NCBI GenBank assembly: GCA_027451445.1
Contig: DAIDJG010000609.1
Span: 1 to 64,000 of the forward strand
DNA from: Singulisphaera sp.
Lineage (GTDB): Bacteria > Planctomycetota > Planctomycetia > Isosphaerales > Isosphaeraceae
DNA length: 64,000 nt
Reading direction: 5' to 3'
The number at the start of each line of letters is the position of its first letter. Within the stretch, counting starts at the first letter, position 1. This document shows, in pieces, positions 851 through 42,550 of the stretch. Both the position numbers and the translations under genes were made by a program. The notes beneath the pieces were generated by a model. The model was not told the DNA's origin. It did no database searches and saw only the letters and a program-made list of their open reading frames with translations.

Positions 851-907
851 GGGTGGTGGTCTTGATCGCCCAGGGCTTCTTGTCGAAGGAATTACGGGAT
901 ACTGCCC

Positions 908-1497: not shown

Positions 1498-2206
1498 CAT
1501 CCTCCTGGTAGAATATGATGTGTACATATGCGAAAATATGGCCGACATCCTCACCGATCAGGGATTTCGCGTCGACATGGCTCATGAAGGGATGATCGCC
1601 CTGGAACTGGTGCGACGGCAGCCGTACGACGTGGCGCTCCTCGACTTGAGGATGCCCGGCATGGACGGCCTGACGCTCTACCGCGAGATCAAGAAGGTGC
1701 AGGCCGGGACGGTCGCGCTCCTCGTCACCGCCTATGTCGGCGGGTCCACAGCCGAGGAGGCGATCGCCGCAGGGGCGTGGCGGGTCCTGTCCAAGCCCGT
1801 CGATCTACCGAGGCTGCTGGGCCTGATCGAAGAGGCGTTGGAACAGCCGCTGGTGCTGGTTGTCGATGACGACGCCGACCTGTGCGATAGCCTCTGGGAC
1901 CTGCTGCGCGAACGAGGCTACCGGGTCTGTATCGCCCACGACGGGCGGCAGGCGGCCGAGCGGCTGCGCGATTCGACACGGGTCGTTCTGATCGACCTGA
2001 AGCTCCCGGGCGGGGACGGCGACGAGGTATTCCATCAGGTCCGGGTTGCGAACCCGGAGGCGCGGACCATGCTCACCACCGGGTACCGGGCCGAGACGGA
2101 GTCGATGGTCGAGCGGCTCTGGACCGAGGGGGTCAACGCAATCTGCTACAAGCCGTTCGACATCCCCGAGTTCCTGGGGACTTTGGGACAACTGGCCAGA
2201 GGGTGA
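1478..2206 (+). CDS. Response regulator with two tandem receiver domains
   Basis: This 242-residue protein starts at MSDDAPS, chosen because the receiver begins directly after it. Receiver 1 (about 7-120) has phospho-acceptor Asp56 in LLDLRMPGMDG and the lysine loop LSKPVD. Its first acidic pair is weak (VEYD where DD is usual). Receiver 2 (about 126-240) has VVDDDAD, Asp173 in LIDLKLPGGDG and CYKPFD. There is no output domain, so it probably works by phosphotransfer or by protein contacts with a kinase. The adjoining kinase gene survives only as a fragment, so the input partner must be elsewhere or lost. Confidence 0.85.
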   Translation: MSDDAPSILLVEYDVYICENMADILTDQGFRVDMAHEGMIALELVRRQPYDVALLDLRMPGMDGLTLYREIKKVQAGTVALLVTAYVGGSTAEEAIAAGAWRVLSKPVDLPRLLGLIEEALEQPLVLVVDDDADLCDSLWDLLRERGYRVCIAHDGRQAAERLRDSTRVVLIDLKLPGGDGDEVFHQVRVANPEARTMLTTGYRAETESMVERLWTEGVNAICYKPFDIPEFLGTLGQLARG

Positions 2207-2340
2207 CGGAGTGGCCTGCCGTTCGAACTTGGCGGAACCGAGCGACCTCCCCAACGGGACAACGGCTGACGCGCTACCGCGAATGGGGCGTCTGGCTCCT
2301 GCGGCCGACGTGATCGTTCTACGCGACGAGGACGAAAGGG

Positions 2341-2463
2341 ACCGGCCTGGGCCGGGCGATCTGCCGGTGGATCATTGAGGCCCACGAGGGCCGGATCGTC
2401 CTCGGCGTTGGCGTTGTCCGGGGCGCGGAGTTCATCCCCATCCTACCGCGAGGTAATCCATGA
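2341..2463 (+). pseudogene. Second histidine-kinase remnant (G2 box and C-terminus)
   Basis: The frame reads TGLGRAICRWIIEAHEGRI and ends at a TGA overlapping the ATG of the next gene (ATGA). This is the G2 box and last helix of a HATPase_c domain. The expected ending, a strand such as GxGSTFTVxLP, is garbled (VRGAEFIPILP). No intact kinase sequence precedes it within 130 bp. The piece marks the 3' end of a lost kinase once translationally coupled to the ANTAR regulator. Confidence 0.6.
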
Positions 2464-3080
2464 ACGCTTCGCTGCGCATCGCCGTCGCCGACGACGAGTT
2501 GGAGATGCAAGAGTACTACCAGACGATCCTGCCCGTGCTGGGCCACGTGGTCGTGGCCGTGGCAGGAACGGGCGCGGAGCTGGTCGAGAAGTGCCGCGCG
2601 CAGCATCCCGACCTGGTGATCACGGACATCAAGATGCCGGACATGGACGGAATTGAGGCAGCGGCGCAAATCTATCGGGAGGCGCCGATACCCGTCATCC
2701 TCGTCTCGGCGTATCACGACGCTGATTTTATCCAGCGAGCCGAGGCGAACCACATCCTGTCCTACCTGGTCAAGCCGATCAAGCAGGCCGACCTCGCACC
2801 GGCCATCGCGATTGTCGTGCGCCGCTTCCGGCAGTTCGAGACGCTCCGCCGGGAGACCACCGACCTGAAACACGCTCTGGAAGATAGGAAGCTCATCGAG
2901 CGGGCCAAGGGCCTGCTGATGAAAAAGGCGTCGCTCGACGAGGCGGAGGCATTCTTGCGGCTACAGACGCTGGCCAGCAATCAAAACCGCAAGCTGGTGG
3001 AGATCGCGCGAATGCTGCTGACGGCAGAGGAAGCGTTCGATGGGTCCAAGCCGGGCCGTCGACAAGGGGGCCTTCATTGA
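2460..3080 (+). CDS. REC-ANTAR response regulator (transcription antitermination)
   Basis: The protein has 206 residues. A receiver domain (about 5-118) carries the acidic pair VADDE, phospho-acceptor Asp56 in VITDIKMPDMDG and the loop LVKPIK. A coiled linker leads to an ANTAR domain (about 132-190: LIERAKGLLMKKASLDEAEAF with the downstream helix RKLVEIARMLL). ANTAR domains bind paired hairpins in nascent mRNA and prevent terminator formation, so this is an RNA-level regulator. The ATG overlaps the stop of the kinase remnant. A basic tail (GRRQGG) follows the ANTAR domain. Confidence 0.9.
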   Translation: MNASLRIAVADDELEMQEYYQTILPVLGHVVVAVAGTGAELVEKCRAQHPDLVITDIKMPDMDGIEAAAQIYREAPIPVILVSAYHDADFIQRAEANHILSYLVKPIKQADLAPAIAIVVRRFRQFETLRRETTDLKHALEDRKLIERAKGLLMKKASLDEAEAFLRLQTLASNQNRKLVEIARMLLTAEEAFDGSKPGRRQGGLH

Positions 3081-3255
3081 GTCTCGATGAGGAGGAGCCC
3101 GGCTTCGTCATCAGACCGTCTGCCATGGGAAGGTCGAGAATCGATGACCATCAAGGTTCATGGGGTGCCATGGTATTGAGCTGACGGCCTCGTTTGATGG
3201 CCTTGCGGTGGAACGACAGGGTTTTCTCTTCCCCCCAAACCGGAGACGGACACCC

Positions 3256-3579
3256 GTGAGTATCGTACTGAAAGGCGGCGCGTTCGACGGTAGGCACCTT
3301 GAGGGAGGCCGCCCCAAAGCTGGCCTGCCCGCGCAGATTCAACTGACCGACACGGGTGCGGTTTTCTCCATCGTTCGCGAGGATGGCCATAAAGTCGACT
3401 ATCCCGATTACTGGAGGTTGTCGGACAAGACAAGGACGAGCGACCCAGCCGCGCCGACTCCGCCCTGGACCGCTCTCTACCACAAGACCGAGACGACCAG
3501 GTCGGGCGAAGTCGAGTTCCAGCACGTCGCGACCACCCACCACGAAAAACCACTCCCGCCGCCTCCGGCGGTTTGGTAG
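3256..3579 (+). CDS. Small hypothetical protein
   Basis: The ORF can start upstream at 3160. I prefer the GTG at 3256, which has GGAGACGG upstream and leaves a clean beta-rich start (VSIVLKGGAFDGRHLEGG). It is about 107 residues, with alternating strands and a DYPDYWRL motif, and ends in a proline-rich tail. No family is recognised with certainty. Confidence 0.45.
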   Translation: MSIVLKGGAFDGRHLEGGRPKAGLPAQIQLTDTGAVFSIVREDGHKVDYPDYWRLSDKTRTSDPAAPTPPWTALYHKTETTRSGEVEFQHVATTHHEKPLPPPPAVW

Positions 3580-3920
3580 CAAGGCAGGCGCAGCACAGTG
3601 GCTCACTCGCTGCGCCGATGACCCGCTTGTACGAGGATTCAGCGCAGTCTTGAGGGGAAGATCACGCGGTCGGTCACTCGTCGTGGTAGGATCGAACTTA
3701 CGCGTGTTAGGTCTTCGACTGGAAAGGGATCACACGAACGATTCCCTGGGAACTTGCCGTCAGGGGCTCAGGTTCATCAGTCCGGCTGGCTCCGAAAATA
3801 GCATCTCGATGCAGGCATGCGAAGCGAGGTGGACGCCTACTAGGGAACCTCGATCGCGGTGGTTAACCAACCGCCGGGGAGGAACAATGAAAAAACGCGT
3901 CGAACTTCCGAGGTTCCAGG
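3580..3920. other. Intergenic region without a recognisable gene
   Basis: About 340 bp between the small ORF and the transglutaminase gene. Overlapping ORFs are present on both strands, but none shows a domain or a good ribosome site. The GGGGAGGAAC at about 3876 lies too far from the 3921 ATG to be its ribosome site. Confidence 0.4.
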
Positions 3921-4730
3921 ATGAAGATCAACGTCGGCTTTGAGATTGTCTACGATTGTCCTCAGCCCACTCCCATGATCCTGGCGCTCAGTATCCACTA
4001 TTCTCGCGTTTCTGACTTGCTGAGACCCGATCATCTCGTCATCAACCCGCCCGTTCCCATCAAGGCGTACCGCGACGGTTTCGGCAACTGGTGCAGCCGG
4101 ATTGTTGCACCGAAGGGCGAAGTGCGTCTCTGGACCGATACGATCGTCAACGATCCGGGAACCCCCGATCAGTACGATCGAGCGGCGCAGCAGCATCAGG
4201 TTCACGATCTGCCCGAAGACACTCTCGTCTACCTGCTGGGGAGCCGCTATTGCGAGACCGATCGCCTCTCGGAGACGGCCTGGTCGCTCTTCGGCAACGC
4301 ACCCACCGGCTGGGCTCGTGTCCAGGCCATCTGCGATTTCGTTCACGGGCATGTTCAGTTCGGATACGAACATGCGCGCCCGACGAAGACCGCATGGGAG
4401 ACGTTCAACGAACGTCAGGGCGTTTGCCGGGATTTCGCTCATCTGGCTGTGACTTTTTGCCGATGTGTGAACATCCCTGCGCGTTATTGCACCGGTTATC
4501 TCGGCGACATCGGCGTACCCCCAAGCGCCTCGCCGATGGATTTCAGCGGCTGGTTCGAAGCGTTCGTCGGCGGCCAGTGGTACACGTTCGATGCCCGGAA
4601 CAATGTTCCGAGGATCGGACGAGTCTTGATCGCGCGGGGACGAGACGCTGCCGACGTGGCGATCAGCACGACCTTCGGGCCCAACACTCTGAAATCGTTT
4701 CGGGTCTGGACTGACGAGGTCAAGAGCTGA
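3921..4730 (+). CDS. Transglutaminase-like family protein
   Basis: This 269-residue cytoplasmic protein has an N-terminal beta-sandwich (about 1-90) followed by a transglutaminase core (about 125-240). The nucleophile Cys169 lies in RQGVCRDFAHLAVTFCRCVNIPARY, the hallmark of the bacterial transglutaminase/peptidase fold. The aspartate is D224 in WYTFDARN. The His that often precedes WFE in these enzymes is not visible (DFSGWFEAF). Either the triad is completed elsewhere or activity is changed. Homologues act as proteases or amidases of unknown substrate. Confidence 0.8.
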   Translation: MKINVGFEIVYDCPQPTPMILALSIHYSRVSDLLRPDHLVINPPVPIKAYRDGFGNWCSRIVAPKGEVRLWTDTIVNDPGTPDQYDRAAQQHQVHDLPEDTLVYLLGSRYCETDRLSETAWSLFGNAPTGWARVQAICDFVHGHVQFGYEHARPTKTAWETFNERQGVCRDFAHLAVTFCRCVNIPARYCTGYLGDIGVPPSASPMDFSGWFEAFVGGQWYTFDARNNVPRIGRVLIARGRDAADVAISTTFGPNTLKSFRVWTDEVKS

Positions 4731-12715: not shown

Positions 12716-13354
12716 GGTCGGTGCCCTCTGGCCGGCGTCTGCATTTCCTTCCCGAGCACCGTCCGGCGTGCACTCGGTCGTCTGCGACAAGTCCGATCTG
12801 AGGACCCCGCGGCCGATTATCGCACGCGGAGTAGATAGATGGCACGTGACGATCGCGGTTCTGTATTGGCTGTTCCGGGATGGAGTCGAGCGTCACGAAC
12901 CGGAGGAGGACGCATGCACGCGAGCGGATAGGTCTCTGTCCAGCCGAACCCGTTTACGTTAATCACAAGACGATGGAACGATGATCCGTTGAATGTTCCG
13001 CAGGTAACACGAAATGCCTGCAAAGAATCGCCGGTCCGGTGGCCTAGCTCTCATTGCTCGCGGTCATCCTTGCACGGGCTTCGGTACATCTTTCAACTTC
13101 TTTCAGCGCACCTGCTGCACCAGGGGTGCCCCGGCTGGGATCAAAGATCATGGGGTCTGCCTGAGTTTGGGCTCGTATCAGGTTTCGAGCGATTGCCGTG
13201 TTCCCTCGTGATCCGAAGGGTGCGACGGATGAGGTTTGGAATCAATGGTGTCCCATCGATTGCCCTCGATCGCAACATGCGCGGAAATGACGACCACCAG
13301 GAAGGCCAGAGCGATGCGCCTTCGATGAACACGATAGCCCGCGGTCAAAAGCCC
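12716..13354. other. Intergenic region, no gene supported
   Basis: About 640 bp with mutually overlapping ORFs that lack domains. The plus-strand ORF 12989-13498 runs antisense through the better-supported small gene at 13355-13546. Confidence 0.4.
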
Positions 13355-13546
13355 TCAAACCGGGATCTCTTCAAGCCGACTGCCGGTCGGGTAGCGTCCC
13401 TGCGCGATCCCCAGGGTGAGCTCACGATAGGCATCCACACGATCCCGTGTTTCGATCACGGCAACTTCACGTTCCGGCGGTTTCGCGCGGCGGAATAGCG
13501 TTGGTTCGTAGTCTCTGGGGGTGAGAGCGAGAACCTTGAAGCGCAT
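13355..13546 (-). CDS. Small hypothetical protein, 63 residues
   Basis: GAGGAGTATTCGGGA precedes the ATG, a strong ribosome site. The sequence (MRFKVLALTPRDYEPTLFRR) is charged, soluble and ends in RLEEIPV. It lies about 110 bp downstream of an XRE regulator on the same strand and may be co-transcribed. The arrangement recalls small regulator-partner pairs, but no toxin or antitoxin family is recognised. Confidence 0.5.
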   Translation of the reverse strand: MRFKVLALTPRDYEPTLFRRAKPPEREVAVIETRDRVDAYRELTLGIAQGRYPTGSRLEEIPV

Positions 13547-13660
13547 TCCCGAATACTCCTCGTCTTGGCGGCGGCCGTGGTCCCTGGTTGCGTAGCAATT
13601 GGGACGGAGTTTATCTGACCGTGGTTTGTCCGTCCACGGTTCGGTTGTCTCTGCGCGACG

Positions 13661-16769: not shown

Positions 16770-17582
16770 ATGGCACACAAAAAGCCACCGAAACTTCCCG
16801 AGAGCGGTGACGCCTTCGCCGTTCCCTTCGACGATGGTCGCTTCGCGGTCTGCCGCGTTATTCTCGACGCGACAAGCGATGAGGCCAGGGATTGGGGCCA
16901 ACCGGTCGTGTTCATCGCCGGTTCGGCCTGGATCGGCACTGAGATTCCGCGCGTCGACGACCCGGCGCTACGGCCGATCCTGCATCTGAACCACCACCTT
17001 TATAAGAACGAGCCGAACATCCTCTGGGTTGCGGAAGAAGTTCCGGGTAACTTCGTCCCGCTCGGAAAGATCGAGCCAACCGTCGACGAAAAGGCCCGCG
17101 TGCGCATGACCTTTGGCAGGTGGGAACACGTCGCCATGCAGCCACTGCTCCAGTGGCGGTGGGATCACGATCGCGAAGCCGTGCTCGCCGACGACGCCGT
17201 TGCGAAGAAGGCGGAGGCCGAGCGGTACACGATTGCGCAAGAGCAGCGCAACGAGTACCTCGGCCGTGTGACCCTCGAAGAACTCCGCAGGCGACGTTTC
17301 TTCCCCAACTGGACGATCCCGCTCGCAAGGTTTACCCGAGCCTCTCGAAAGCTCATGTTGCACGCCGTTGAACGTCTGCTCGAACTCGGCCCGAGTGCGC
17401 GCGAGGAGGCGCGAATCGCAATCCTTCAAGAGTGCATCGAGAGTTTTAACGCGCTCAACGACGGGACCGGGTTCATCGAGACGGACGAACGGGAAGATAT
17501 CTGCGCGGAGTTCGAGGCCATCGTTCATGCCTGCGGACTCGGTGCTCACGAGGATCTGGCGGACCGTTGGCGAGAATGGTGA
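16770..17582 (+). CDS. Imm26-like N-terminal domain protein
   Basis: The protein has 270 residues. The N-terminal part (about 9-100) fits the Imm26 immunity-protein family: GDAFAVPFDDGRFAVCRVI followed by a beta-rich stretch and ILWVAEEVPGNFVPLG. The C-terminal half (about 130-270) is helical and unrelated (EELRRRRFFPNWTIPLARF, LLELGPSAREEARIAIL). Imm26 proteins neutralise polymorphic toxins when next to one. No toxin gene is adjacent here, so the protein may be an orphan immunity gene or use the fold for another task. Confidence 0.6.
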   Translation: MAHKKPPKLPESGDAFAVPFDDGRFAVCRVILDATSDEARDWGQPVVFIAGSAWIGTEIPRVDDPALRPILHLNHHLYKNEPNILWVAEEVPGNFVPLGKIEPTVDEKARVRMTFGRWEHVAMQPLLQWRWDHDREAVLADDAVAKKAEAERYTIAQEQRNEYLGRVTLEELRRRRFFPNWTIPLARFTRASRKLMLHAVERLLELGPSAREEARIAILQECIESFNALNDGTGFIETDEREDICAEFEAIVHACGLGAHEDLADRWREW

Positions 17583-18960: not shown

Positions 18961-19530
18961 TTATTGCAGGCGATCATTCTGAAGGCGCGCGATCACGTCC
19001 CTGGCCTGCTCCGTCGTCAGGTTCTCGGGGCGAACCGCACCGAACTCCTCGCGGAGCAGACCTTCCATGTCGATGCGCTTCTTGAACGCAATCGCGTAGA
19101 TGGCTCTCACCTGGGAGGACGTCGCGGCACTGGCCGAACCGCTCTGTGGCGCGCTGTCCGGAACCGAGACGACTTCGGTCGAGCAGGCATGACCGTTGAC
19201 CGGGCTTGCGACGCCGTTGGTCCGAGCATGCACGCCATTGGAGTGCGCTCCCACGCCATCGGCCAATGCAGTCGAACCCAGTGCATGGCCACTGGCCGGC
19301 ACGGCGCCAGGAACCCGCCGCGTGGGCTCGGATTTGAGCCGTACCAGCTCGTCGGTAACGGCCTGTTGCGCGGCCGAGAACGCCCGCCGGATATGCGCTT
19401 GAAAGCCCTCCGGGTCATTTTGCAGCAGATTGGAGTCGAGTTCGACCTCGATGTTGCAGCTCGCCCCGGCCGAGCAGTAATTGGGCAGTCCCAGCTTGCG
19501 CGAGACGCCCACGTTCAATTTGAGGGGCAT
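18961..19530 (-). CDS. Unrecognised island protein with a C-terminal helical module
   Basis: The protein has 189 residues. Residues 1-65 form a compact alpha/beta domain (LKLNVGVSRKLGLPNYCSAGASCNIEVELDS) with Cys19 and Cys25. A low-complexity linker rich in Ala, Gly and His follows. The C-terminal 45 residues (SSQVRAIYAIAFKKRIDMEGLLREEF) resemble a short helical module found at the ends of phage and plasmid DNA-metabolism proteins. It is the next gene after the clamp-like gene, 68 bp away, which supports a DNA-linked role. That role is inference. Confidence 0.6.
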   Translation of the reverse strand: MPLKLNVGVSRKLGLPNYCSAGASCNIEVELDSNLLQNDPEGFQAHIRRAFSAAQQAVTDELVRLKSEPTRRVPGAVPASGHALGSTALADGVGAHSNGVHARTNGVASPVNGHACSTEVVSVPDSAPQSGSASAATSSQVRAIYAIAFKKRIDMEGLLREEFGAVRPENLTTEQARDVIARLQNDRLQ

Positions 19531-19598: not shown

Positions 19599-21101
19599 TC
19601 ACTCGGTCACGTCCTGAAGCTGGAGTTGGCGGAGCGAGCGCAGGGTATCTTGTAAGAGTCGGCTCTGTTTGCGATGGCGCCGTAGCGAGATGACCAGTCG
19701 CCCGAAACGAGTCTTCGCATCGGAAAGGACTTCATGGAGTGCCTCGGCCTCCTTGATCAGGGCTGTCAGGCTCGTGGGCCCGGCGGTGTCGGTAGTGCCG
19801 GGGCCGTTGCTCGCTTCGCCGACTTTTCCGTTCGTCTGGGCCGCTGCCACGACTTGCTCGGCAACCGCGCCTGTCGAGGTCTTCGCTCCGTTTTTCGCGG
19901 TTGTGGTTCGCTCATGCACGACGGTTCTCTCTTTCTCGATCTCGTCCTCGCGTGCGACGGGTCCGGCGATGCCAGGAGAGGACTCGATCCTGATGGCATC
20001 GTCGGTGGCCTCGATGGCCGTCTCGGGGTTCATGGATTGCCAGACGTAGATGCTGCGGGCCACGCGGGCGGCGATCGGGGACTTGGCGTCCTGAATCTCC
20101 AGGTCCCGGAAACCGAGACGGAGAGCACGGAGCATGAAGTCGCGTTCACCGTTCACCCGCAAGGGAGCACCCGTGAAGCGAGAACGGTTCAACACCAGTT
20201 CCGTGGTGCGTTCCGGATCACCACCCCGGGTGCGGAGCGTAACGCGACCGTTGAGTTCGAGCGTCAACGGGACGTACGTGTCGTCGGCCTGCGGTAGTCC
20301 CGGCAGCGTGTCGGCGAGAAACGCAGCATCCGAATCGTCGATCGTCAGCCGAGTGGCTGCGGTTTCGGGACCGGGTACGATGTGCGAGATTTCCGGGAAG
20401 CGCACGTCCTTCTGAATCTCCAGAAACAAGGTCCACGAGCCGGCTCGGAGCACGACGTGAGTATCGGTCTTCGCGATCGAGATGGCACGATCGCGCGGCA
20501 GCATGGGAGAGGCGAAGATTGGCGCGTGCCTGACAAGCACGTCGTCGTTCCAGGGGAAACGAAGCCCTCCCTGGATCAGGAGCTGGCGACCGTCGGTTGC
20601 AACGATGTCGCTCGTCTTGCCTCGAAGCTGGATAGTGGATAGTGCGTATCGCGTGTCGGCCTCGTCGCACGTCTCCGAGGCAGCGGTGAGCGCGCCGAGT
20701 AGCTCCGCCGGTGCCGTTGACCGCGATTCCGGAAATGTGGGAAACGCGGCGACGGTACCGGCCTCCGGCACAGCGTACTCGCGCGACTGGGAAGCGTGTC
20801 GATCCTGCCAACGGACAACGGTGCGGTCAGGGGCGGCGGATTCGAGAACGACGGAGGTGTCCTGTTTGCCCTCGAAGTCCGCCAGCGCGTCCAGCGGCAG
20901 CAGGATCGTTTCGCGCGGCTCGGCACGGCCGGACAGCGTACAGGTGACGCCGAGCGCCTCGTACCGATGTTTCACGCATAGCTGCGTTCCCTGGGCTTCG
21001 AGCACCAGTGGGGGAATCGGGCTCCGATGAGCGATTCCCAAGACGACACGACGGAACACCTGACGAAGGTTGTGCACTTGACGACGGGTGAGCGTTATCA
21101 C
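19599..21101 (-). CDS. DNA sliding-clamp (DnaN)-like protein with C-terminal coiled coil
   Basis: The start at the GTG at 21101 follows GGGAGACCACC, and the longer ORF start is rejected. It encodes 500 residues. The middle (about 120-210) carries the most telling clamp pattern: DEADTRYALSTIQLRG and DIVATDGRQLLIQGG, as in DnaN domain 2 (TRYxLNGV, VATDGHRL). Residues about 1-110 and 230-360 have the strand-rich, variable look of clamp domains 1 and 3. The usual DnaN C-terminal MPMR motif is absent. Instead a long linker and a helical coil follow (about 435-500). It may be a dedicated clamp for the element or a non-replicative relative. Confidence 0.65.
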   Translation of the reverse strand: MITLTRRQVHNLRQVFRRVVLGIAHRSPIPPLVLEAQGTQLCVKHRYEALGVTCTLSGRAEPRETILLPLDALADFEGKQDTSVVLESAAPDRTVVRWQDRHASQSREYAVPEAGTVAAFPTFPESRSTAPAELLGALTAASETCDEADTRYALSTIQLRGKTSDIVATDGRQLLIQGGLRFPWNDDVLVRHAPIFASPMLPRDRAISIAKTDTHVVLRAGSWTLFLEIQKDVRFPEISHIVPGPETAATRLTIDDSDAAFLADTLPGLPQADDTYVPLTLELNGRVTLRTRGGDPERTTELVLNRSRFTGAPLRVNGERDFMLRALRLGFRDLEIQDAKSPIAARVARSIYVWQSMNPETAIEATDDAIRIESSPGIAGPVAREDEIEKERTVVHERTTTAKNGAKTSTGAVAEQVVAAAQTNGKVGEASNGPGTTDTAGPTSLTALIKEAEALHEVLSDAKTRFGRLVISLRRHRKQSRLLQDTLRSLRQLQLQDVTE

Positions 21102-21514
21102 GGTGTGGTCTCCCAGTGAACGGAACGGACGGATACGGAACACGCGGGCGTCGCACGGAAGCCCGCGTGAGATCGGGTTGAACGCGGAGGTCGCTTCGCA
21201 CGGAAGCGCTTTCGACGTCGCGATGCCGATTTGACCGGTAATCACCGGCTCGTCGGCACGAAGACCGCGAGGCGGTGGCTTTGCGGGACATTCGGGACAC
21301 GGTCACGATGACTTGGACGCGCGCAGCCAGGTCGACCGGCGGCCAATTGCGCCGTGTGTTGTCAAGGTGTGTATGATAAGAGTGGGTGACACGGCGATGG
21401 ACGGCGTGGTCTGGGTGTGCACTCCGTGTTTACATGACCCGTCGTGACCGCCTGGAGAAGGTGTGTCGTTCCCAGTCTCCTGAATCCGTATCAGGAGAGC
21501 CGAGGAGTCCAATC
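21102..21514. promoter_or_regulatory. Divergent intergenic region between the clamp-like gene and a secreted-protein gene
   Basis: About 410 bp. A TATGAT hexamer at about 21371 could be a -10 element for the rightward gene, but no good -35 is spaced correctly. It should also hold the promoter of the leftward clamp-like operon. No coding signal is seen. Confidence 0.35.
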
Positions 21515-22144
21515 ATGGGGCGAAATCGCTTGAAACCCTGGACGCTGCTCGTCGTCGCTCTCGCGTTGCACATGGGGAACGGCGCGGAAGCCCAGACCTA
21601 TTACAGGACGGTTCCAGGCGGCAGTGCGATTCCGTACGGATACGGGATCGCAAACGGTCAAATCGCACCGGGCTATCAGGCCGCGTACCAGTTCTACCCC
21701 CGTCCCTACTACTACGGGTTTCCGAGGCAACGTCAGACTGTGACGGACTACCAGTCGCTGATCAACGCGGTCACGTCATTGCCCGGCTGGTACGGACCCG
21801 CCCCACGACCCGCTCGCCCCGTCGCGCCTCAGCCAACGATAGCGCGAGGTGAGTTGATCAACGATGATGGCACGGTACTGTGGCCCAGCGCAACGCCGAG
21901 CGATTCACGGGTCCTGACCACGCGCCACGCTGCCGAGGAAGCGGTCAGGATCGCCGTCCAGGAGCAGCGCAAGGAGGGCCAGGCCACCATTCGTCACGTG
22001 GCCGACGCCCGCAACAAACTTGATGCCTTCGCCCGTGATGCACTGCCCATCCTGAAGGCCAAGAACGCCGCCGATTCGGCCGGGCTGGAGCGGTTCATCG
22101 TCGAGCTGAAAAAGACGCTCGCGACACTGGCGGTCCACTATTGA
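21515..22144 (+). CDS. Secreted protein with Tyr/Pro-rich segment
   Basis: The ATG at 21515 follows CGAGGAGTCC. The 209-residue protein has a cleavable signal peptide (LLVVALALHMGNGAEA, likely cut near AEA/Q). A Tyr/Pro/Gly-rich stretch follows (about 28-80: YYRTVPGGSAIPYGYG, FYPRPYYYGF). The C-terminal part is helical (about 135-209: TTRHAAEEAVRIAVQEQRK). No enzyme motif is present. It is one of the few rightward genes in the island. Confidence 0.65.
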   Translation: MGRNRLKPWTLLVVALALHMGNGAEAQTYYRTVPGGSAIPYGYGIANGQIAPGYQAAYQFYPRPYYYGFPRQRQTVTDYQSLINAVTSLPGWYGPAPRPARPVAPQPTIARGELINDDGTVLWPSATPSDSRVLTTRHAAEEAVRIAVQEQRKEGQATIRHVADARNKLDAFARDALPILKAKNAADSAGLERFIVELKKTLATLAVHY

Positions 22145-22182: not shown

Positions 22183-23253
22183 TCAGGGCTTTCCCAGGGC
22201 TTCCTCAATCGACCGTTCGAGTTCAGGATCACTCAGCTCCAGTCCGACGAGAGTGCCGTTCCTGCCGATCAGGAAGTTCTCGGGTAGCGTCACCACGCCG
22301 AATCGTGTAGCTATATCATCGCTTTCGTCATCGCTCAGCAGGTTTGGCCACGTGATTCCGTGCTCGACGAGCACGTGACGAACGGTGGGCAACACAGTTT
22401 TGGCTTCCTTCACGTCTTCGTGATGGGCGTCGAGGTTGACGCCGATGACCTCGAAGCCGCGTTTCTCGTATTTCGTCGCCAGCGCGGTGAGTCGCTGGAA
22501 CACGGTCACACTGGGGGGACACCAGGTCGCCCAGAAGTGAACCAGAACGACCTTCCCCGTCAGGCCGCCCGAGCGGAATCTCTGGCCTTCGACGTCGGTT
22601 CCCTCCAGAGAGGGTGCCGGCGTGCCCACCAGGTTGAGCATGCGCCGCCGTTGCTCGAAATGAGACCTGACCACAGGATCGCGCGCCTCATCGCACAGTA
22701 GCGTGCAGGCGCGTTTGGCCACGGCGTAGGACTTCAGATGGATCAGCCTCTGGAGTGTCACCTCTCCCAGACCCAGGCTTCGATCCTCCGCGGACGGTCC
22801 GTCCTTCGGTTGTGCCTGTTTCGCTCGACGCAGGAAAGCGGCGAGAACATCAAGTGCCTCGACCGACTTTCCCTGGTCGATCCTGGCGATCACCATGGCG
22901 TGTGTGGCCAGTGCCAGCACGTCGGTCGGTGTGTTCGGGTCGGCAAGGCAACGATCGGCCGCTGGGGCCGCCGCAGCGAGCAGGTCGCGGTCGATCGCGT
23001 GCTGAAACAATTCGCGGTAGGTACGCGTTGCGTCGTCACCTGTCTTCCTCGCCGCCAGTGCGGTCAGGTCGGCAATCCGCTGTACTTCGAGTTCGTCCAG
23101 GCGACGGTTGTAGAATGCGTCAAGAGCTTCGAGCGAGTCGAAGGATCGAGCGGGCTCCTGGACCGCCTGCGCTCGGGCTGTTTCTTCCTGAATCGCGGCC
23201 CACGAAGCGAACAGGGACACGATGAAAGCGAGAACTCGACCCGTCATTTTCAT
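22183..23253 (-). CDS. TlpA-like thioredoxin-fold secreted protein lacking the second active-site Cys
   Basis: It encodes 356 residues from MKMTGRVLAF, where a signal peptide begins. The N-terminal half is helical (about 40-205). The C-terminal half (about 212-352) is a TlpA/ResA-like thioredoxin domain: VGTPAPSLEGTDVEGQ, then VVLVHFWATWCPPSVTVF, and the cis-Pro loop VVTLPENFLIG. The active-site motif reads WCPPS, so the resolving Cys of the usual CPPC is missing. This would block normal disulfide exchange but could still allow mixed disulfides or thiol-peroxidase-like chemistry. It points toward the envelope. Confidence 0.8.
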   Translation of the reverse strand: MKMTGRVLAFIVSLFASWAAIQEETARAQAVQEPARSFDSLEALDAFYNRRLDELEVQRIADLTALAARKTGDDATRTYRELFQHAIDRDLLAAAAPAADRCLADPNTPTDVLALATHAMVIARIDQGKSVEALDVLAAFLRRAKQAQPKDGPSAEDRSLGLGEVTLQRLIHLKSYAVAKRACTLLCDEARDPVVRSHFEQRRRMLNLVGTPAPSLEGTDVEGQRFRSGGLTGKVVLVHFWATWCPPSVTVFQRLTALATKYEKRGFEVIGVNLDAHHEDVKEAKTVLPTVRHVLVEHGITWPNLLSDDESDDIATRFGVVTLPENFLIGRNGTLVGLELSDPELERSIEEALGKP

Positions 23254-23423
23254 GCCGATTCTCCGTTGAGGACGGAGTCGCTGGCGTCTCAGGTGCACCG
23301 CGGAGGATGACCCCGGTTAGCACGCCAGCTCTTCTCCGCACCTGCACATGGTAAAGCTTCCAACGACCCTTCGTCCATGAAGGGATGGTCGGACGTTGGG
23401 GCGGCGGTTGCGGAGAACCGCTG

Positions 23424-23738
23424 TCACGAGCACGTACGGAAACACGACACCGGTTCACGGTCGGCCGTGACCGTCGAGGCGGCGAAAACGTCGTCCGGCT
23501 CGACGATGAAGTAGACGTCGCAGATTTCACATTCACCGAGCGGCAGCTCACCGTCTGCCACCGGGCCAGGATATGGCACGGAATTGCGGCAGAATGGGCA
23601 CTCGATGCACAGCGTCAGCTCCTCGGGTTCCAGGTCGGTCGGCACCTCTGGGACGACCTGGAAGCCGAGCAGATGGACGTTGCCAAGTGGTTCGCCGAGC
23701 GCGTCGGCAACAGCGCATTCCAGTTGAGCTTGGGTCAC
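23424..23738 (-). CDS. Small zinc-ribbon-like protein
   Basis: The start is the GTG at 23738 with GAGGAGAATCTC upstream, not the longer ORF. In 104 residues there are two cysteine pairs: LCIECPFC and GECEICDVYF. These probably fold as a four-Cys zinc ribbon. The N-terminal part is helical and acidic. It is one of several small paired-cysteine proteins in the island. Confidence 0.6.
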   Translation of the reverse strand: MTQAQLECAVADALGEPLGNVHLLGFQVVPEVPTDLEPEELTLCIECPFCRNSVPYPGPVADGELPLGECEICDVYFIVEPDDVFAASTVTADREPVSCFRTCS

Positions 23739-23878
23739 GAGATTCTCCTCATGGGTTTGATGGCGAGCGTAGTCGTGCTCAGGGCGCACGACGGCGCTTT
23801 CCAGGGGTTCGTCGACGTTTGATCTGGGTCGGTGGGAGTGCTAACGATGTGAACTTCGGGGCAATTCGCAGGTCGCTG

Positions 23879-24778
23879 TTACAACAGAGACGGCACCGGC
23901 GTGGGCCTGGAGCTGCCCTTCTCGGCCGTCAGCTCGATGACCCTGGCACGCAGGTGTGCCGATGCCGCGGCGAACGCAGTTTCCAGCTTCGCCTTCTCCT
24001 CACCGAGGTAATCGGCGTAGGCTTCGACCTTGAAACGCGTCTGCCGGATGCGCTCGGCTGCGCGCTCCAGAGTATCGGGACGCGTTTCCTCGCCGAACGC
24101 GGCGATCGCCATCTCGTGTTCGCTGATCAGCGCCTCCAGTCCCGAGGCCACTGACTCCTGGACGCTCCGGTCGCCATGCGGCGTGCCCGCCGGTACCGGA
24201 AAGCGGCGCAGGCTGCCATTGATCCGCACGATGAACCGGCCGATGCGGTCGATGAATTCGGTGTGCTCGCGAGGTACGAAGTAACAGCCGCCGTTGTCAC
24301 GGATCGGGAACAGGTCCGCCTTTCGCTCGAACAACCGCTGGATGACCCGCGTCACGTCGCTCCCATTACGCGTCACGATGCACTCGTCGAGGGCCTCCTG
24401 GGCCAGCGTCGCCAGGCCCGGCAGGTCGCATCGTACTTTTCCTGTGGCCTTCTCCAGGGTGAGCACCGTCTCCAGGTCGTACTGGAAGTGGTCGCCCTCC
24501 CGGTGCTCCGTTGTGAACTGGAACTTGATCGCATCCGCGTCCTCGGCGAGTTGGCGGATGATGCGGTCCTCACTGAGCTTCTTGCAGGCACGCGAGAACG
24601 CATGGCGCGGCGCCAGTTCGCGTGCCACAGATTCGTCGAGGTCGCTGTCGCGCAGGGCCTCGATGAGCGCTCGGTACGCGATCGACGTTCCCGAAGCGCT
24701 CCAGGTGATGATTTCGCCCAGCAGCTTCGTTCCGGGTGCAACGGGGTATACGCCGTTCGTTTTCGTGGCAACGGACAT
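23879..24778 (-). CDS. Hypothetical protein, possibly DUF6744-like, about 300 residues
   Basis: The start MSVATKTNG follows GAGGAGCACC. The 299-residue soluble protein has an N-terminal alpha/beta region (IAYRALIEALRDSDLDESVARELAPRHAFSRAC). A central strand/helix part contains NGGCYFVPREHTEFIDRIGRFI. A long C-terminal helical coil follows (about 235-290: AAERIRQTRFKVEAYADYLGEEKAKLE). I recall similar proteins in planctomycete accessory regions under a DUF label, but the match is from memory and uncertain. It follows the VWA gene by about 120 bp. Confidence 0.6.
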   Translation of the reverse strand: MSVATKTNGVYPVAPGTKLLGEIITWSASGTSIAYRALIEALRDSDLDESVARELAPRHAFSRACKKLSEDRIIRQLAEDADAIKFQFTTEHREGDHFQYDLETVLTLEKATGKVRCDLPGLATLAQEALDECIVTRNGSDVTRVIQRLFERKADLFPIRDNGGCYFVPREHTEFIDRIGRFIVRINGSLRRFPVPAGTPHGDRSVQESVASGLEALISEHEMAIAAFGEETRPDTLERAAERIRQTRFKVEAYADYLGEEKAKLETAFAAASAHLRARVIELTAEKGSSRPTPVPSLL

Positions 24779-24897
24779 CTCAGGGTGCTCCTCATGATGG
24801 GTTAGAAAAGCGAGACGGCCCGACCGACGCATTCGCGCACGTGGTGTGCGGGTGGATGCGTCTGCCGAGCCGTGGTGATAGAGAATGGGATGGGCCG

Positions 24898-26316
24898 TCA
24901 GAGGGAAAGCACGCGTTCCACGGCCACCTCGGACGTGGCAAGCGAGGGCAGCTCGTGCACCTCGTCGCTGATCGTGGTCAGGTCACCCGGAACGCTGCCG
25001 ATCACAAGCGTGATGACACGAGCCCTCACTGCCCGCTTCCAGACCAGGAACGCTTCCTGATCCTCCAGGGGAATCTGGCAGACGGCGTCGGTGATGATGA
25101 TCACGTCGGTGTCGCCCCGTGGGGCCTTGAGTTCGTTGTAATAGCGCGGCAATTCGCGGACCGGCACGTCGAGCGTGCTGCCGCGACCCAGGAATGCTTC
25201 CAGCCAGTCGGCCAGTGCCTGTTCGTTCCACCGTCCAGGCGGCAGGGGAAGTAATCGCTCGCCGGTGTCCCCGCTGTAGGCGACCAGGCCGCACCAGCGC
25301 CGTTGCTGACGGGCGATCCAGGCGAGAGCAAGGGCAAGCGCCTTGGCGGTATGCACCTTCTCGCCTTCCATGCTGCCCGACTCGTCGACCGTGACCAGGA
25401 TCGGTCCCTTGCCCACCGGATCGGTGGCGTGGTACTCGCGACAGAGCGTCTGGCGCTCGGCGAGACGACGTAACGTATCCAGCTCGCACTCGGGGAGCGC
25501 GAGCCTCGCCAGCTCGGTGGGCAGGAGTCGGCCGATGTCGCCGCCGGGCTCGACGCCCACGACGTCATCAAGGCCATGAGTTGTCTTGCGGCGTTGCCTG
25601 GACTGGGCCACACGGCGATAGCGGCCCGCCAGTTCGGCAATCCGACGCAGCCTGGGACTGGCCCGCACTCGGCGGAACAGCGCGGCGATGGCCTTCGGGT
25701 CGTTGCTCCCTGGTCCTCCGGGTCCCAGGCCGGCTGCTGCGGCGACTTCCATGCACTCGGACACCTCGGCGCTCGCCTCGGTCAGGGCCTTGCACACGGC
25801 GCGCAGGACGGCGATCTCCTCGTCGGATTCGGACGCCCCGCTTACGGAATCCGGTCCCATGGCGTCCCCGTCCGGCTTCTTCGGTTCCTGCTCGTCGCAC
25901 AGGTTAGAAAACTGCTCGGCGTAGCTAACCGCAGCGAGGGCGGCGGCCGCTTCCTGGAGCATGGTCGTCGCATGCAGGGCGTGGTACTCCGGCGTCTCCA
26001 GGAGCTGCGTCAGGAACTTGTGGCGCAGCCGGTCGGCGCAGTCGGGCATCAGCCTTGCCTCCGGAGCGAAGGCCGCGGTGTGAAAGTCGGCCATCGCGTA
26101 AGCGCCGAGGCACCGCCTGGCCAGTGTGGCATGCTCGGCCAGCAGATCGGCACCCCGACGAAGGGCCCAGTCGTCGATCTCGAGCGCGTTCGGGTTGGTG
26201 ACTCGCGGTGAACGCCGCTCTCCGCTTTCCGGAGGATGGGTGAGTGGATCGGCCCGAGTAATCGGTTCGTCGGTTCCCGTCAGGTCGAGCATGCGGAGTA
26301 GTTCATCACGATCCAT
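24898..26316 (-). CDS. VWA-domain protein (ViaA/CoxE-like), partner of the MoxR ATPase
   Basis: The protein has 472 residues from MDRDELLRMLD, with AAAGGACC upstream. The N-terminal half is helical, with an acidic Ser-rich linker (about 130-150). The C-terminal part (about 285-470) is a von Willebrand A domain. Its metal site DESGSMEGEKVH is complete, with the later IIITDAVCQIP strand and a Thr/Gly segment. VWA proteins of this layout pair with MoxR-type AAA ATPases (RavA-ViaA, CoxD-CoxE) in chaperone or metal-loading roles. The AAA gene lies two genes upstream in the same operon. Its start overlaps the zinc-ribbon gene by 11 bp. Confidence 0.85.
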   Translation of the reverse strand: MDRDELLRMLDLTGTDEPITRADPLTHPPESGERRSPRVTNPNALEIDDWALRRGADLLAEHATLARRCLGAYAMADFHTAAFAPEARLMPDCADRLRHKFLTQLLETPEYHALHATTMLQEAAAALAAVSYAEQFSNLCDEQEPKKPDGDAMGPDSVSGASESDEEIAVLRAVCKALTEASAEVSECMEVAAAAGLGPGGPGSNDPKAIAALFRRVRASPRLRRIAELAGRYRRVAQSRQRRKTTHGLDDVVGVEPGGDIGRLLPTELARLALPECELDTLRRLAERQTLCREYHATDPVGKGPILVTVDESGSMEGEKVHTAKALALALAWIARQQRRWCGLVAYSGDTGERLLPLPPGRWNEQALADWLEAFLGRGSTLDVPVRELPRYYNELKAPRGDTDVIIITDAVCQIPLEDQEAFLVWKRAVRARVITLVIGSVPGDLTTISDEVHELPSLATSEVAVERVLSL

Positions 26317-26698
26317 CGGCGGTGGTCCTTTCGGAGTTTGGTTCGTTGTCGCAAAGCGGATGCGAGTCCGCACGCAGCGACCGCGGTTCAGGATGCGAGT
26401 CCGCACGCAGCGACCGCGGTTCAGCGGGCTTGAGCTGCCAGAACCAGGGCGGTCCACTGGCGGGGAATGGGACGACCTGTTCGAGAACTGCGCGGCAGTC
26501 CGGGCAACGGTAGGGCGGATCGAGGCCGTCGCAGTCGTACTGGTCGATGTCGAGACCTGACGCCTGGAACAGGTTCAGCACGCGCTGGCAAGAAGGACAC
26601 GGCGACTCAATCAGTGCGAGCTGGAGCACGAGTTGCCGCTGCTTGCCCAAGGAGCCCAACACCTCCCTGGGCGTCTGAAGAATCTGGCGGTTGGTCAT
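26306..26698 (-). CDS. Small four-Cys protein with an 11-residue duplication
   Basis: The start at 26698 follows AAGGACCG. The 130-residue protein has ESPCPSCQRVLNLF and YRCPDCRAVLEQV, two CxxC pairs for a likely zinc ribbon. Near the C-terminus EPRSLRADSHP is repeated twice in tandem, encoded by a perfect 33-bp duplication. It sits between the AAA and VWA genes and overlaps the latter, so it is probably made with them. Confidence 0.65.
   Translation of the reverse strand: MTNRQILQTPREVLGSLGKQRQLVLQLALIESPCPSCQRVLNLFQASGLDIDQYDCDGLDPPYRCPDCRAVLEQVVPFPASGPPWFWQLKPAEPRSLRADSHPEPRSLRADSHPLCDNEPNSERTTADGS
26358..26423 (-). repeat. Two perfect 33-bp tandem repeats
   Basis: GGATGCGAGTCCGCACGCAG... 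occurs at 26358-26390 and again at 26391-26423 with no mismatch. The unit is a multiple of three, so it adds 11 residues to the protein without a frameshift. Perfect identity suggests recent origin or a mobile short repeat. Confidence 0.85.
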
Positions 26699-26755: not shown

Positions 26756-27886
26756 TCAGACCTCGTGAATGCAGGCGAGTCGGATACGACGCATCTGGTC
26801 GCGGACGTAGGCGCGGGCCTTGGAGGCTCGCGGGTCGCGTTCGATGGCGCTCAATTGCTTCTCGATCTCCCCGAGCTTCGCAGTGGCGGTCGTCGCCTGC
26901 CCGAGGTTCTTGACGTCCGTGGCGGAGAGGATCTGCTCGGCCTCCATGAGAAGCTGGTTGACGCGCATGCCCGTGGGATTCGCGATACGGGCGATGACCT
27001 GGGCAGACTTTTCGGGCTGCTCGACCGGATCGTCCCAAAGGACGCTGGCCAGAACTTCGAGGTGCTCCGGGGATACCCGTTCGGCTCCGGCCAGGTACGC
27101 GTACGCCTGGGTGGCACCCACGGCCTTGTACTGGCGTCGATCCCCCGGTTGGATACCCTCCTTGGTCAGGGTGCGCAGGATCGTCTCCAGGGCCTCGACT
27201 GCATCGTCCGACCATGGCAACGCCCCTGCCGCTTTGTGGGCGGCGTCGACCTCGTCGGCCGTGATGGACGTCGAGAGCTTCGGACCGTGGTCCCGGGTCC
27301 AGAGGAGCCGTCTCCGGCCTGCCAGCGTGGCAATCGGGCGAACCGTGCGGCGGAACAGGAACCGATCGAGCAGTGCGGTCAGTTCCTTCCCGGTCTCGGG
27401 AGAGGGCCACTCGTTTGAAGCAGCGACGCAGAGCCGCAAGGGCACGCGCAGGGTCTCGCCGTCGTTCTCGAAGACGCGCTCGTTGAGGATCTTGAGCAAG
27501 GTGTTCAGGATCGCGGAGCTGGCCTTCCACACTTCGTCGATGAACGCCAGCTCGGCCTCGGGGAGCTTGCTCGTCGTGACGCGGCGGTAGCGGTCCTCCT
27601 TCAGCGCGGTAATCGACACCGGCCCGACAACCTCTTCGGGGGTGCTGAACTTCGTGAGCAGGATGGCGAAGCGGCGGCCGTGCATCCAGTTCATGAGCGA
27701 GTCGAGAAGCAGGCTCTTGGCGCAACCGGGAGGCCCAACCAGGAGCAGGTGTTCCTGGGCGATCAGGGCCGTGAGCGCGAGGTCGATCTCGTCGTCGCGC
27801 TCGATGAGCGCCTCGGACAGCTCGCGGCGAGCCGTCATGAACTTGTCCTGGACGGCGGAGTGGGTTTCGGGGCTGAGAGTCTTCAT
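26756..27886 (-). CDS. MoxR/RavA-type AAA ATPase
   Basis: The 376-residue protein has Walker A at 51-58 (GPPGCAKS), Walker B at 113-118 (LAFIDEVWK) and sensor 1 Asn158 in CVAASNEWP. Arginine-finger candidates lie in LLDRFLFRRTV. The C-terminal part (about 300-376) is helical. It resembles RavA more than the shorter classic MoxR. Such ATPases form hexamers that remodel or load clients together with a VWA partner, here the gene at 24898. The start MKTLSPETH is chosen because the upstream nine residues are not domain-like. Confidence 0.85.
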   Translation of the reverse strand: MKTLSPETHSAVQDKFMTARRELSEALIERDDEIDLALTALIAQEHLLLVGPPGCAKSLLLDSLMNWMHGRRFAILLTKFSTPEEVVGPVSITALKEDRYRRVTTSKLPEAELAFIDEVWKASSAILNTLLKILNERVFENDGETLRVPLRLCVAASNEWPSPETGKELTALLDRFLFRRTVRPIATLAGRRRLLWTRDHGPKLSTSITADEVDAAHKAAGALPWSDDAVEALETILRTLTKEGIQPGDRRQYKAVGATQAYAYLAGAERVSPEHLEVLASVLWDDPVEQPEKSAQVIARIANPTGMRVNQLLMEAEQILSATDVKNLGQATTATAKLGEIEKQLSAIERDPRASKARAYVRDQMRRIRLACIHEV

Positions 27887-28275
27887 GGGGATGGGTTCCT
27901 GAGTGAGTGTCAAAGATCATCAGTTCAAAGCGCACGTTGCACGTCCCCCACGTCGGCACATGGGAGGTTCGGATTAATTGGGTTTCCGGACGACCACCGC
28001 CCGGCTCATATCCGACGCTTGCGACGTGAATCTCATCCCCGTCGACCAGGAACGAGGGTTCAACGCTATTGCTGGCGCGGAACGGACGCTACGAGAGATT
28101 GTGGGCGGATGGGCTGACGAGCAAACGCTCGACGGGGAAGAGCGATGTGTCGCGAAGCAATGGGTTTCCCCGACGAATCCAGGTGACTTCGTGCAGCGTT
28201 CCTCGACACCGAAATGCTGAAGGTGCGCGAGCCGCGCACGAAGCGATCGGAGGTGTAGGTGCGGGTCGATTCTGG
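27887..28275. other. Intergenic region before the AAA gene
   Basis: About 390 bp without a credible gene. The plus-strand ORF 27978-28220 has no ribosome site. This is the longest gap in the leftward gene train and probably holds the promoter of the AAA-VWA operon. Confidence 0.35.
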
Positions 28276-28881
28276 TTACCGATCACCGGTGCGTCGCTCG
28301 TTTGTTCTGGGCCGGCGGCTGAGGACCGCACAGGCCGCAAGATAAACCGGACCGATATCGACGCGGTTGGCCTGGAGGACCTGATCCCCCGTCTCCGCGT
28401 CGCCAGTCTCGACAGCGTCGATCAGGATCGCGAGCGAGCTGAGGAAGCGTCCGGTTCCAGCGTGTACGGGCTCGACTTCCTCATAGCCGTACATGGCGCC
28501 GTGCGCGTCGGCGAGTGACGGATAAAACGTGGGACCGTAGTCGTAGGAGATGCGACGTAACATGCCCGTCGCCCTGATCCGGACCCAGTCACCGCGTCTG
28601 TATTGCGCACCGTTCGCGAACACGAGCGTTCTTTCGCCGGGCTCGATTGATTTACGGTAACGACCATTCTCGTCGAGAATGTCGAGCGCACGAAGATAGA
28701 AGACGTCGCGCCACTCCTCGCCGCACGCCAAACACTCAACCGGTCCGGTCACACGATCGCTGTCTGCTTCGACATGACCGGCCTCGATGTCGCCGGAGCC
28801 GCAGAACGGGCACTTCGCGCCGCCGCGTTCGATGTATTCCTCGACCATCGCGGAAGTCAATTCCTTCGTCGTGCCGGCCAT
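28276..28881 (-). CDS. Four-Cys zinc-ribbon protein, 201 residues
   Basis: AAAGGAATGTGCAC precedes the ATG at 28881. The N-terminus has AKCPFCGSGDIE and VECLACGEEWRDVF, a standard two-CxxC ribbon of the kind that binds nucleic acid or protein. A beta-rich domain follows (about 85-130: VFANGAQYRRGDWVRIRATG, RISYDYGPTFYPS) and a helical end. Function is not recognised. Similar ribbons recur in the island (23424, 26306, 29945). Confidence 0.6.
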   Translation of the reverse strand: MAGTTKELTSAMVEEYIERGGAKCPFCGSGDIEAGHVEADSDRVTGPVECLACGEEWRDVFYLRALDILDENGRYRKSIEPGERTLVFANGAQYRRGDWVRIRATGMLRRISYDYGPTFYPSLADAHGAMYGYEEVEPVHAGTGRFLSSLAILIDAVETGDAETGDQVLQANRVDIGPVYLAACAVLSRRPRTNERRTGDR

Positions 28882-28948
28882 GTGCACATTCCTTTCGGAG
28901 AGGTTGTTGCGTTCCGATCATGTGGTGACCGAGTGGATCGAGCCGCCA

Positions 28949-37646: not shown

Positions 37647-37758
37647 TCATGGCGCGGGAAGCCCGCTTTCACGAGCGAGCAGCGCGTACTCTGAGAGGAC
37701 GCGATCGCGAATCTCGGTCAGGAGTTTCGTGTTCTTGACGCTTCGCGCGACGAACTCG
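37647..37758 (-). pseudogene. 3' fragment of the gene cut by the IS1-like element
   Basis: Joining this piece to the 5' part at 39002-39551, counting the 8-bp duplication once, keeps the frame. The rebuilt end reads AMREFVARSVKNTKLLTEIR and finishes ...GLPAP before TGA. The fragment has no start of its own. Confidence 0.85.
37751..37758. repeat. Left 8-bp target duplication of the IS1-like element
   Basis: CGAACTCG here is repeated at 39002-39009 on the other side of the element. Confidence 0.9.
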
Positions 37759-39001
37759 GGTGCTGTATCCGTAAGCCGTGAAACCTGGCCTCAGCCGTTC
37801 GGTGGTGAACAATAGCACAGAAGCTCTTTCAGCGTCCATATGTGGTCGGTCAACCCCGCCGCCATTGCGGGAGTTCGAGGAGTCCAAACGCGACCATGAG
37901 CAGTCGGCGGACAGAGCTTGATCCGTAAGGCACTGTGGGGACGCACGAGATTGTAAACCGCATCCTCGAAATCAAGGTGGTGCTGGAGCGAGTCCTTCCG
38001 CTTGGAATGTGACAACGTCTTGCGCACCAACCGACCGTTGTTTTGACGCGACGTCAAGTTATCACGCTCCACATAAGAGGTGTTGATCTGGGAACCGCAG
38101 CGATCGGTCTGCATAATCCGGATGAGATCCTCCTCGGTGCCGAACAGGATCTGCCGCTTGACTTCGACCACGCGCCCCTCTTCGCGATCCTTGCGGACCT
38201 GAGCGTAACGCAGGTTCGGGTCCACCAACCGTCGCGGTTCTTTGCGCGGTCGCCCGCGGCCACGTCGGACGGGGGGTGGCTCCGGGGTGCTGTAAGTGGC
38301 GATCAGCGCGGCGACATAGGCTGGCAGTTCGTCGCTGGTGAAGAACGGTGCGCGACCATTGGTCCGAGCCTTGAATTTGGCCAGAAACGCTCGTGCTTCC
38401 AGCTCGCTACGATCGTGGCTGAGGTGGTTGACCACGCGCAACCGGCTGGGGAGGGCCAGGGCGCGCCAGACCCACATGTCGCCGACGTCCGGGGGATCTT
38501 TCGATTGGCGGTGGACTTGCTTTTTTTGATAAACGTCCACAGTTCGTCAATTTGCACTTGGGTGAGCGAGAGATCGCGGACAAGCCCGGCGCTGACTACG
38601 GCACTATGCTGTCCTGCCAATGCGAGCCAATGCAACACGCGGTTCGGAGTGTGGCCTGTAAGACGGGCTACCGCCCTCACGCTGTTGCGCTCGCTCAGAA
38701 GCGCCAGCGCTTCAAGTACGGTCGCGCGCGAGCTTCGCAGAGTCTCGAATAACGTATGCTTGTCTATGCTAAACGTATGCCGGCACGTCGCGCAGTAGTA
38801 ACGCTGCTCCCTGTAGCTGAAGACCTTGATGTTGCCAGCTCCCGCGATCCCGTAATCGGGGCAAGCCTTGTGGTCGCACCATTGCCGCTCAGGTTCCATG
38901 ACGCATCACCTCCAGCTAACGATGATACGTCAGATGGTCGTTCACAGCCAACCGCAACTAGGTACAAACGATCAGTATTCACGGCTTACGGATACAGCAC
39001 C
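37759..39001. mobile_element. IS1-like insertion sequence, 1243 bp
   Basis: The two ends are perfect inverted repeats of 24 bp beginning GGTGCTGTATCCGTAAGC. They are flanked by the 8-bp duplication CGAACTCG, the size typical of the IS1 family. Inside lie two overlapping transposase frames joined by a run of seven A residues. The element is complete, with no internal damage seen, so it may still be active. It interrupts a gene of the island near its 3' end. Confidence 0.92.
37791..38899 (-). CDS. IS1-family transposase, two frames joined by -1 frameshift
   Basis: Frame A (38899-38303) has an N-terminal zinc ribbon (WCDHKACPDYG, YYCATCRHTF), a helix-turn-helix and the first catalytic Asp in VQIDELWTFIKK. 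Frame B (38540-37791) carries FFTSDELPAY and the glutamate in NTSYVERDNLTSRQNNGRL, completing the DDE triad. The two overlap at ATCAAAAAAAGC (38521-38529 region). There a -1 slip changes IKKS to the QKKQV frame, the classic IS1 InsA-InsB mechanism. Confidence 0.88.
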
Positions 39002-42518: not shown

Positions 42519-42550
42519 GAGGCGATCTCCTTGTGAGGGACCGCCCCCGA

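Follow-up and report, generated by a model that had tools for sequence, protein, structure and literature searches.

In the usual view, a bacterium relies on one DnaN and one loader for all clamp functions; in eukaryotes, the 9-1-1 clamp exists beside PCNA. MoxR and Ycf46-like ATPases lie outside the clamp-loader clade and, to our knowledge, the targets of the MoxR-vWA and Ycf46-like ATPases are mostly unknown. The usual role of MoxR-vWA pairs is the maturation or remodelling of protein complexes, in which they act as remodelling or insertion machines (PMC9976466); because they are known as such machines and not as clamp loaders, a loader role for a pair of this kind is to be regarded as no more than a possibility. 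MoxR-vWA proteins also occur in the MoxR-vWA-beta-propeller ternary conflict systems, in whose description no clamp is mentioned (PMC7159879).

Here we analyze a 64,000-nucleotide stretch (the window) of the 10.9-Mb draft genome of a planctomycete, a Singulisphaera species of the Isosphaeraceae, which encodes a divergent, accessory member of the DnaN superfamily as one gene of a conserved operon. The DnaN fold itself is known; what appears to be new here is its combination with AAA+ modules. No description of a clamp together with an AAA+ protein (and a nuclease) was found in the open-access literature, subscription journals being outside the scope of the search, and none was found there that links the Ycf46-like AAA+/DUF1257 module described below to a clamp.

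A divergent DnaN-superfamily clamp outside the replication genes

The clamp gene occupies positions 19599-21101 of the minus strand, as the earlier note had placed it: the open frame spans 19599-21245, and homologues fit a GTG start at 21101, with GGGAG 8-9 nt upstream, giving a protein of 500 residues. Searches of Pfam, NCBIfam and the PDB with the single sequence returned zero matches, and a profile was needed for detection. The family profile, built from 31 sequences, retrieved 32 beta-clamp sequences from the PDB (best E 4e-9); the top matches were beta clamps only, led by 7rzm, 6ams and 4tsz, and profile positions 27-343 aligned colinearly to residues 29-350 of a 367-residue PDB clamp. 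The profile search proposed earlier thus favors a clamp, as does a profile-profile alignment to planctomycete DnaN proteins, that of the host included (99.2%, E 2.6e-19, 320 columns). Both motifs that had been read as DnaN domain 2 find their counterparts in this alignment, TRYALSTIQLRG pairing with TRYALGGVLVEL of the host DnaN and VATDGRQLLIQ with GTDGRRLA, and the alignment extends to the C-terminal strand, where DnaN YVVMPLTRD stands opposite clamp YVWQSMNPE. Among the 31 family members, 28 match the phage processivity-factor family phrog_947 (best 5.5e-14), and only one gives a match, a weak one, to the Pfam DnaN central-domain model.

The predicted structure leads to the same assignment. 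In an AlphaFold single-chain model computed with 19 related sequences (mean pLDDT 83), residues 1-377 show the strand and helix order of a three-domain clamp, residues 378-442 are a disordered linker and residues 445-499 form one long helix, in line with the linker and coiled coil first noticed in the sequence. The best 50 Foldseek matches in the PDB were all DnaN (E 1e-21 to 2e-20), with target-normalised TM scores of about 0.72-0.78 for nearly all of them and a maximum of 0.78, so that a single chain of the clamp matches DnaN along all three domains; the viral structure matches were headed by phage clamps. The proposal of a three-domain DnaN-type clamp is therefore borne out by the family profile, the profile-profile alignment and the AlphaFold/Foldseek comparison. 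The clamp resembles bacterial DnaN (PF00712/PF02767/PF02768) in its full-length three-domain fold, its colinear profile alignment, its domain-2 motif and the core of its client pocket, but differs from it in sequence, with about 14-18% identity in the structural alignment, which lies beneath Pfam detection.

The clamp is not a canonical replicative DnaN. It stays below the cutoffs of the Pfam and NCBIfam DnaN models, its neighbours include no dnaA, recF or gyrB, the linkage used as a criterion for the replicative protein, and the MPMxL-type end is gone: the equivalent strand reads YVWQSM. The absence of an MPMR end and the location outside the replication genes had both been recognized from the sequence. 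The clamp coexists with a canonical DnaN encoded elsewhere in the host genome (G000:C180), which passes the Pfam/NCBIfam cutoff and has the C-terminus YVVMPLTRDR (MPLTR).

The client pocket and the pore

To address which features of the client pocket are present in the clamp, we used the residue numbers and pocket roles known from E. coli DnaN (L155, T172, G174, R176, L177, P242 and M362) and set the residue correspondence by profile-profile alignment and comparison of 19 family members. The equivalents of R152, T172, D173 and G174 are kept in all 19 members, L155 in 17, Y153 in 16, L177 in 15 and P242 in 14. In contrast, the R176 equivalent is Gln in all members and the M362 equivalent is Gln or Ala in most; the H175 equivalent is Arg or His, and that of P363 is kept in 10 members and is Ser in the clamp of the window. 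The earlier claim that the usual client pocket residues are gone thus stands for the MPMR end and for M362 and R176, which are replaced, but not for L155, T172, G174, L177 and P242, whose equivalents persist in the majority of members or in all of them. Few parts of the family are as strongly conserved as the domain-2 pocket motif, and W98, Q173, L175, R234 and P236 are family-specific invariant residues. Since most pocket residues are kept and some are altered, the clamp probably has a binding pocket of altered specificity, judging from these alignments.

The first pore helix is basic, with a charge of +5 (3 to 6 in most full-length members), and the remaining pore helices are neutral or acidic save that of residues 320-329 (+2). 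The clamp body carries a net charge of -5.

Distribution of the clamp family

The family was found in 32 of 99 related planctomycete genomes, representing 19 of 54 genera. Several genomes are multicopy; that of the window holds one accessory copy, and Singulisphaera GP187 has a copy at 48-50% identity. A scan of GTDB contigs with one short degenerate pattern returned planctomycete records only, plus one bacterium MAG, and because it relied on that single pattern, the family can be assigned to Planctomycetota alone only provisionally. When 392 genomes were drawn evenly from across the phylum, the strong matches (E < 1e-70) fell in the same class, and the weak ones (1e-8 to 1e-13) resemble ordinary DnaN in the four that were inspected. 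A tblastn search of 50,697 phage and 72,556 plasmid records revealed no relative, and matches in IMG/VR were confined to one contig. The clamp represents a paralogue family that is widespread in planctomycetes and invisible to Pfam and NCBIfam.

The operon in the window

In the window, genes for a MoxR ATPase, a vWA protein and a DUF6744 protein lie 3-7 kb upstream of the clamp, and the gene for a protein that we call ORFH lies immediately downstream, all on the minus strand. The MoxR AAA+ protein (26756-27913, start probably ATG at 27886) is RavA-like, with an intact Walker A (GPPGCAKS) and Walker B; it matches Pfam bpMoxR at E 4e-53 and NCBIfam RavA at E 1.5e-57. The ViaA-like vWA protein (24898-26457) has an intact DxSGS MIDAS motif, matches NCBIfam ViaA at E 4e-18 and Pfam VWA_2 weakly, and probably starts at an ATG at 26316, giving about 472 residues. 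A 33-nt sequence occurs in two perfect tandem copies (26358-26423) between the genes for MoxR and vWA; the copies are in frame with the over-long open reading frame of vWA but precede its likely start. The third gene of the module encodes the DUF6744 protein (23879-24832; Pfam PF20529, E 1e-6; start probably ATG at 24778). Upstream of the module is a zinc-ribbon protein gene (28276-28887).

The small cassette protein with an MTQ...TGE...GF motif and a four-cysteine zinc ribbon (23424-23789) is the upstream neighbour of the clamp in 31 of the 49 loci compared below. Two genes split the operon, in the window only: that of a TlpA/AhpC-like thioredoxin protein (22183-23298), between the zinc-ribbon gene and the clamp, and that of a secreted-type protein on the opposite strand (21386-22144, plus). 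Neither is probably part of the clamp system. ORFH (18961-19530, 189 residues) begins 68 nt downstream of the clamp; its model (pLDDT 75) has an N domain of two strands and a long helix, a disordered linker and a three-helix C domain, and a fold search with this structure gave zero significant matches. The genes next to the clamp in the window did not include a recognised nuclease.

The MoxR and vWA genes of the window resemble RavA-ViaA and other MoxR-vWA chaperone pairs in their adjacency, their intact motifs and their best NCBIfam matches, with scores of 196 and 66 bits that lie below the RavA and ViaA equivalog cutoffs of 681 and 500 bits. They differ in having DUF6744 as a third gene and in being linked to a clamp instead of respiratory enzymes. 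With the ternary conflict systems they share the bpMoxR domain, a vWA partner and a planctomycete distribution. However, no propeller family matched C-terminal to the vWA domain (354-457 of 519 residues), and membership in the ternary systems was rejected on this account.

Two mutually exclusive AAA+ modules

Comparison of 49 loci, the window and its relatives, revealed a highly conserved gene order of two types. Type I loci have the order MoxR, vWA, DUF6744 and clamp, followed by L065x, ORFH or neither. In type II loci, the order is a DUF1257-like protein, a coiled coil, a Ycf46-like AAA+ ATPase, P329, P86, a small protein in the zinc-ribbon slot, the clamp, ORFH and a PD-(D/E)XK nuclease. 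The AAA+/DUF1257 module takes the same operon slot in 26 of the 49 loci and the MoxR/vWA pair is present in 9, while none has both; DUF6744 occurs in 10, adjoining the MoxR/vWA genes wherever these are present in the sequence. ORFH lies downstream of the clamp in 26 loci and is followed in 14 by a RecB-like nuclease (PF12705, E 4e-31).

The window is type I upstream, yet it also has two type II components, the zinc-ribbon protein and ORFH, and its genome lacks the type II ATPase. In a sister species of the same genus (L063), a type II module stands behind a homologue (12960-13556) of the zinc-ribbon gene that precedes the MoxR gene of the window, and these arrangements point to a probable exchange of AAA+ modules between members of one genus.

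Other cassettes vary in content. An ATP-dependent DNA ligase lies beside the clamp in L042, DUF932 occurs in L054 and L066, and DUF2201 in L055. In L041, P329 and P86 (7725-8714 and 8711-8971) are conserved cassette proteins without a Pfam family, and an SNF2 helicase with a NO VEIN C-terminal domain (808-4332), which likewise precedes the cassettes of L044 and L048, has HmaA as its best PADLOC match. We read the PADLOC matches of L041 to Cas4/DruK, IetA and the helicase as superfamily resemblance.

Components of the type II module also occur in phages. Tunturi_3 encodes homologues of the ATPase, P86 and P329, the last annotated as an HNH endonuclease, together with an annotated DNA ligase and a Cas4-like exonuclease, and in RcDurkin and RHph_TM16 the ATPase is near a helicase and a polymerase or primase. 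The presence of the ATPase and its companions among phage DNA genes speaks for a role of the module in DNA transactions. The DnaN-like clamps of phages (phrog_947, for example gp84 of Mycobacterium phage Firecracker) are the best family-level profile match of the clamp but differ from it, as the latter is chromosomal and accompanied by ORFH and, in relatives, a nuclease. In Firecracker, a Ycf46-like AAA+ protein, Ku and DnaN are encoded in one gene run (L116, 11405-12583 and 20463-22163), so that its clamp, like ours, shares a gene run with a related AAA+ ATPase; the run is possibly a phage counterpart of the clamp cassette. Firecracker gp84 as a close relative was rejected, as the family HMM does not recover it.

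The helix tail correlates with a partner gene

The helix that follows the linker carries a TL.SL..L motif in its last residues. The motif is present in 26 loci, each with ORFH or L065x next door, and is missing in 11 loci without a partner gene, one of which (L070) is cut by a contig end; four further loci with a partner gene miss the strict pattern and have nearly intact tails. The association is strong when loci are counted regardless of phylogeny, which confounds the correlation (Fisher p 4e-7). This pattern suggests that helix 445-499 may be a docking site for a partner protein.

A clamp that may tether DNA-processing partners

We hypothesize, and consider somewhat better than even, that this is a dedicated, non-replicative planctomycete clamp that tethers partners in DNA processing, and that the AAA+ module assembles or remodels the complex they form. 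The proposal builds directly on the homology and fold of the clamp, the operon, the two exclusive AAA+ modules and the correlation between helix and partner gene. The body would most likely form a ring on DNA, with the host's own DnaN serving replication, and the flexible 65-residue linker and long helix may dock ORFH-like partners and, via them or directly, the RecB-like nuclease of relatives, so that the docked complex would hold a DNA-processing activity on DNA. The AAA+ module, here the MoxR protein, its vWA adaptor and DUF6744, may assemble, load or strip the complex, and in most relatives the Ycf46-like AAA+ protein with DUF1257 and helper proteins would act in the same role. Such a system probably serves in the processing of DNA ends, in recombination or in repair.

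If so, a specialised clamp would be added to the bacterial repertoire, somewhat like 9-1-1 beside PCNA, and MoxR-vWA and Ycf46-like ATPases would gain a candidate substrate in the clamp. A bolder extension, which we regard as doubtful, is that handling by these ATPases and not by one of the clamp-loader clade represents a second, independently evolved route for loading or unloading a DNA ring. Counted against the tethering account are the acidic body with only the first pore helix clearly basic, ATPases outside the clamp-loader clade, the split operon of the window with no nuclease, an ORFH of no recognised fold, and a window cassette in which no polymerase or known repair factor was recognised.

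The patchy, multicopy occurrence of the family and its exchangeable modules would also fit a defence or conflict system, in which clamp and nuclease would be directed at invading DNA, or the clamp would serve as a decoy that draws phage anti-DnaN factors, and the AAA+ module would control release. The MoxR protein is of the ternary conflict system type (PF20030; PMC7159879) and the SNF2 helicase of L041 matches defence helicase models. We nevertheless consider this unlikely: the window cassette has no effector or known defence protein, PADLOC gave zero matches with the window proteins, the Cas4/DruK matches reflect the general PD-(D/E)XK fold, and type II AAA+ proteins are found in phage replication regions. 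It is less probable still that the clamp fold no longer acts on DNA and instead provides the AAA+ machine with a protein scaffold. The lost MPMR end, the acidic body and several acidic pore helices would be in keeping with a scaffold, as would the maturation or remodelling of protein complexes usually ascribed to MoxR/vWA pairs (PMC9976466), but the strong conservation of the domain-2 pocket motif, the nuclease and ligase neighbours and the conserved basic first pore helix argue for a role on DNA.

That the clamp is a processivity factor with which an integrative element replicates, in line with the self-replication role entertained in the earlier note, seems very improbable. Phage DnaN genes are known, and the window holds nearby insertion sequences and, about 24 kb from the clamp, a large serine recombinase (43188-45152, minus; PF07508 and PF00239) that is one of only five in the genome. 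However, neither the scanned proteins of the window nor the neighbour families that recur included a recognised polymerase, primase or initiator, and the phage and plasmid searches were negative apart from the single IMG/VR contig. With no polymerase or initiator recognised in the cassettes examined, self-replication is unsupported so far, and the tethering clamp is the reading that we retain.

Mobile-element context of the window

Similar serine recombinases lie near the clamp loci L050, L060 and L068. A search for element borders around the clamp found no tRNA and no flanking direct repeats. Two insertion-sequence-like units are present, at 39814-41352, with perfect inverted ends of 20 nt and a DDE transposase, and at 37751-39009, with inverted ends of 37 nt (89%). 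An immunity-protein-like gene with weak Imm26 and DUF5713 matches lies at 16770-17582 (plus). Finally, the gene at 41784-42758 (minus) encodes an HTH or sigma-like protein with relatives inside or beside the clamp cassettes of L043 (10904-11860), L047 (6943-7668) and L063 (9450-10151).
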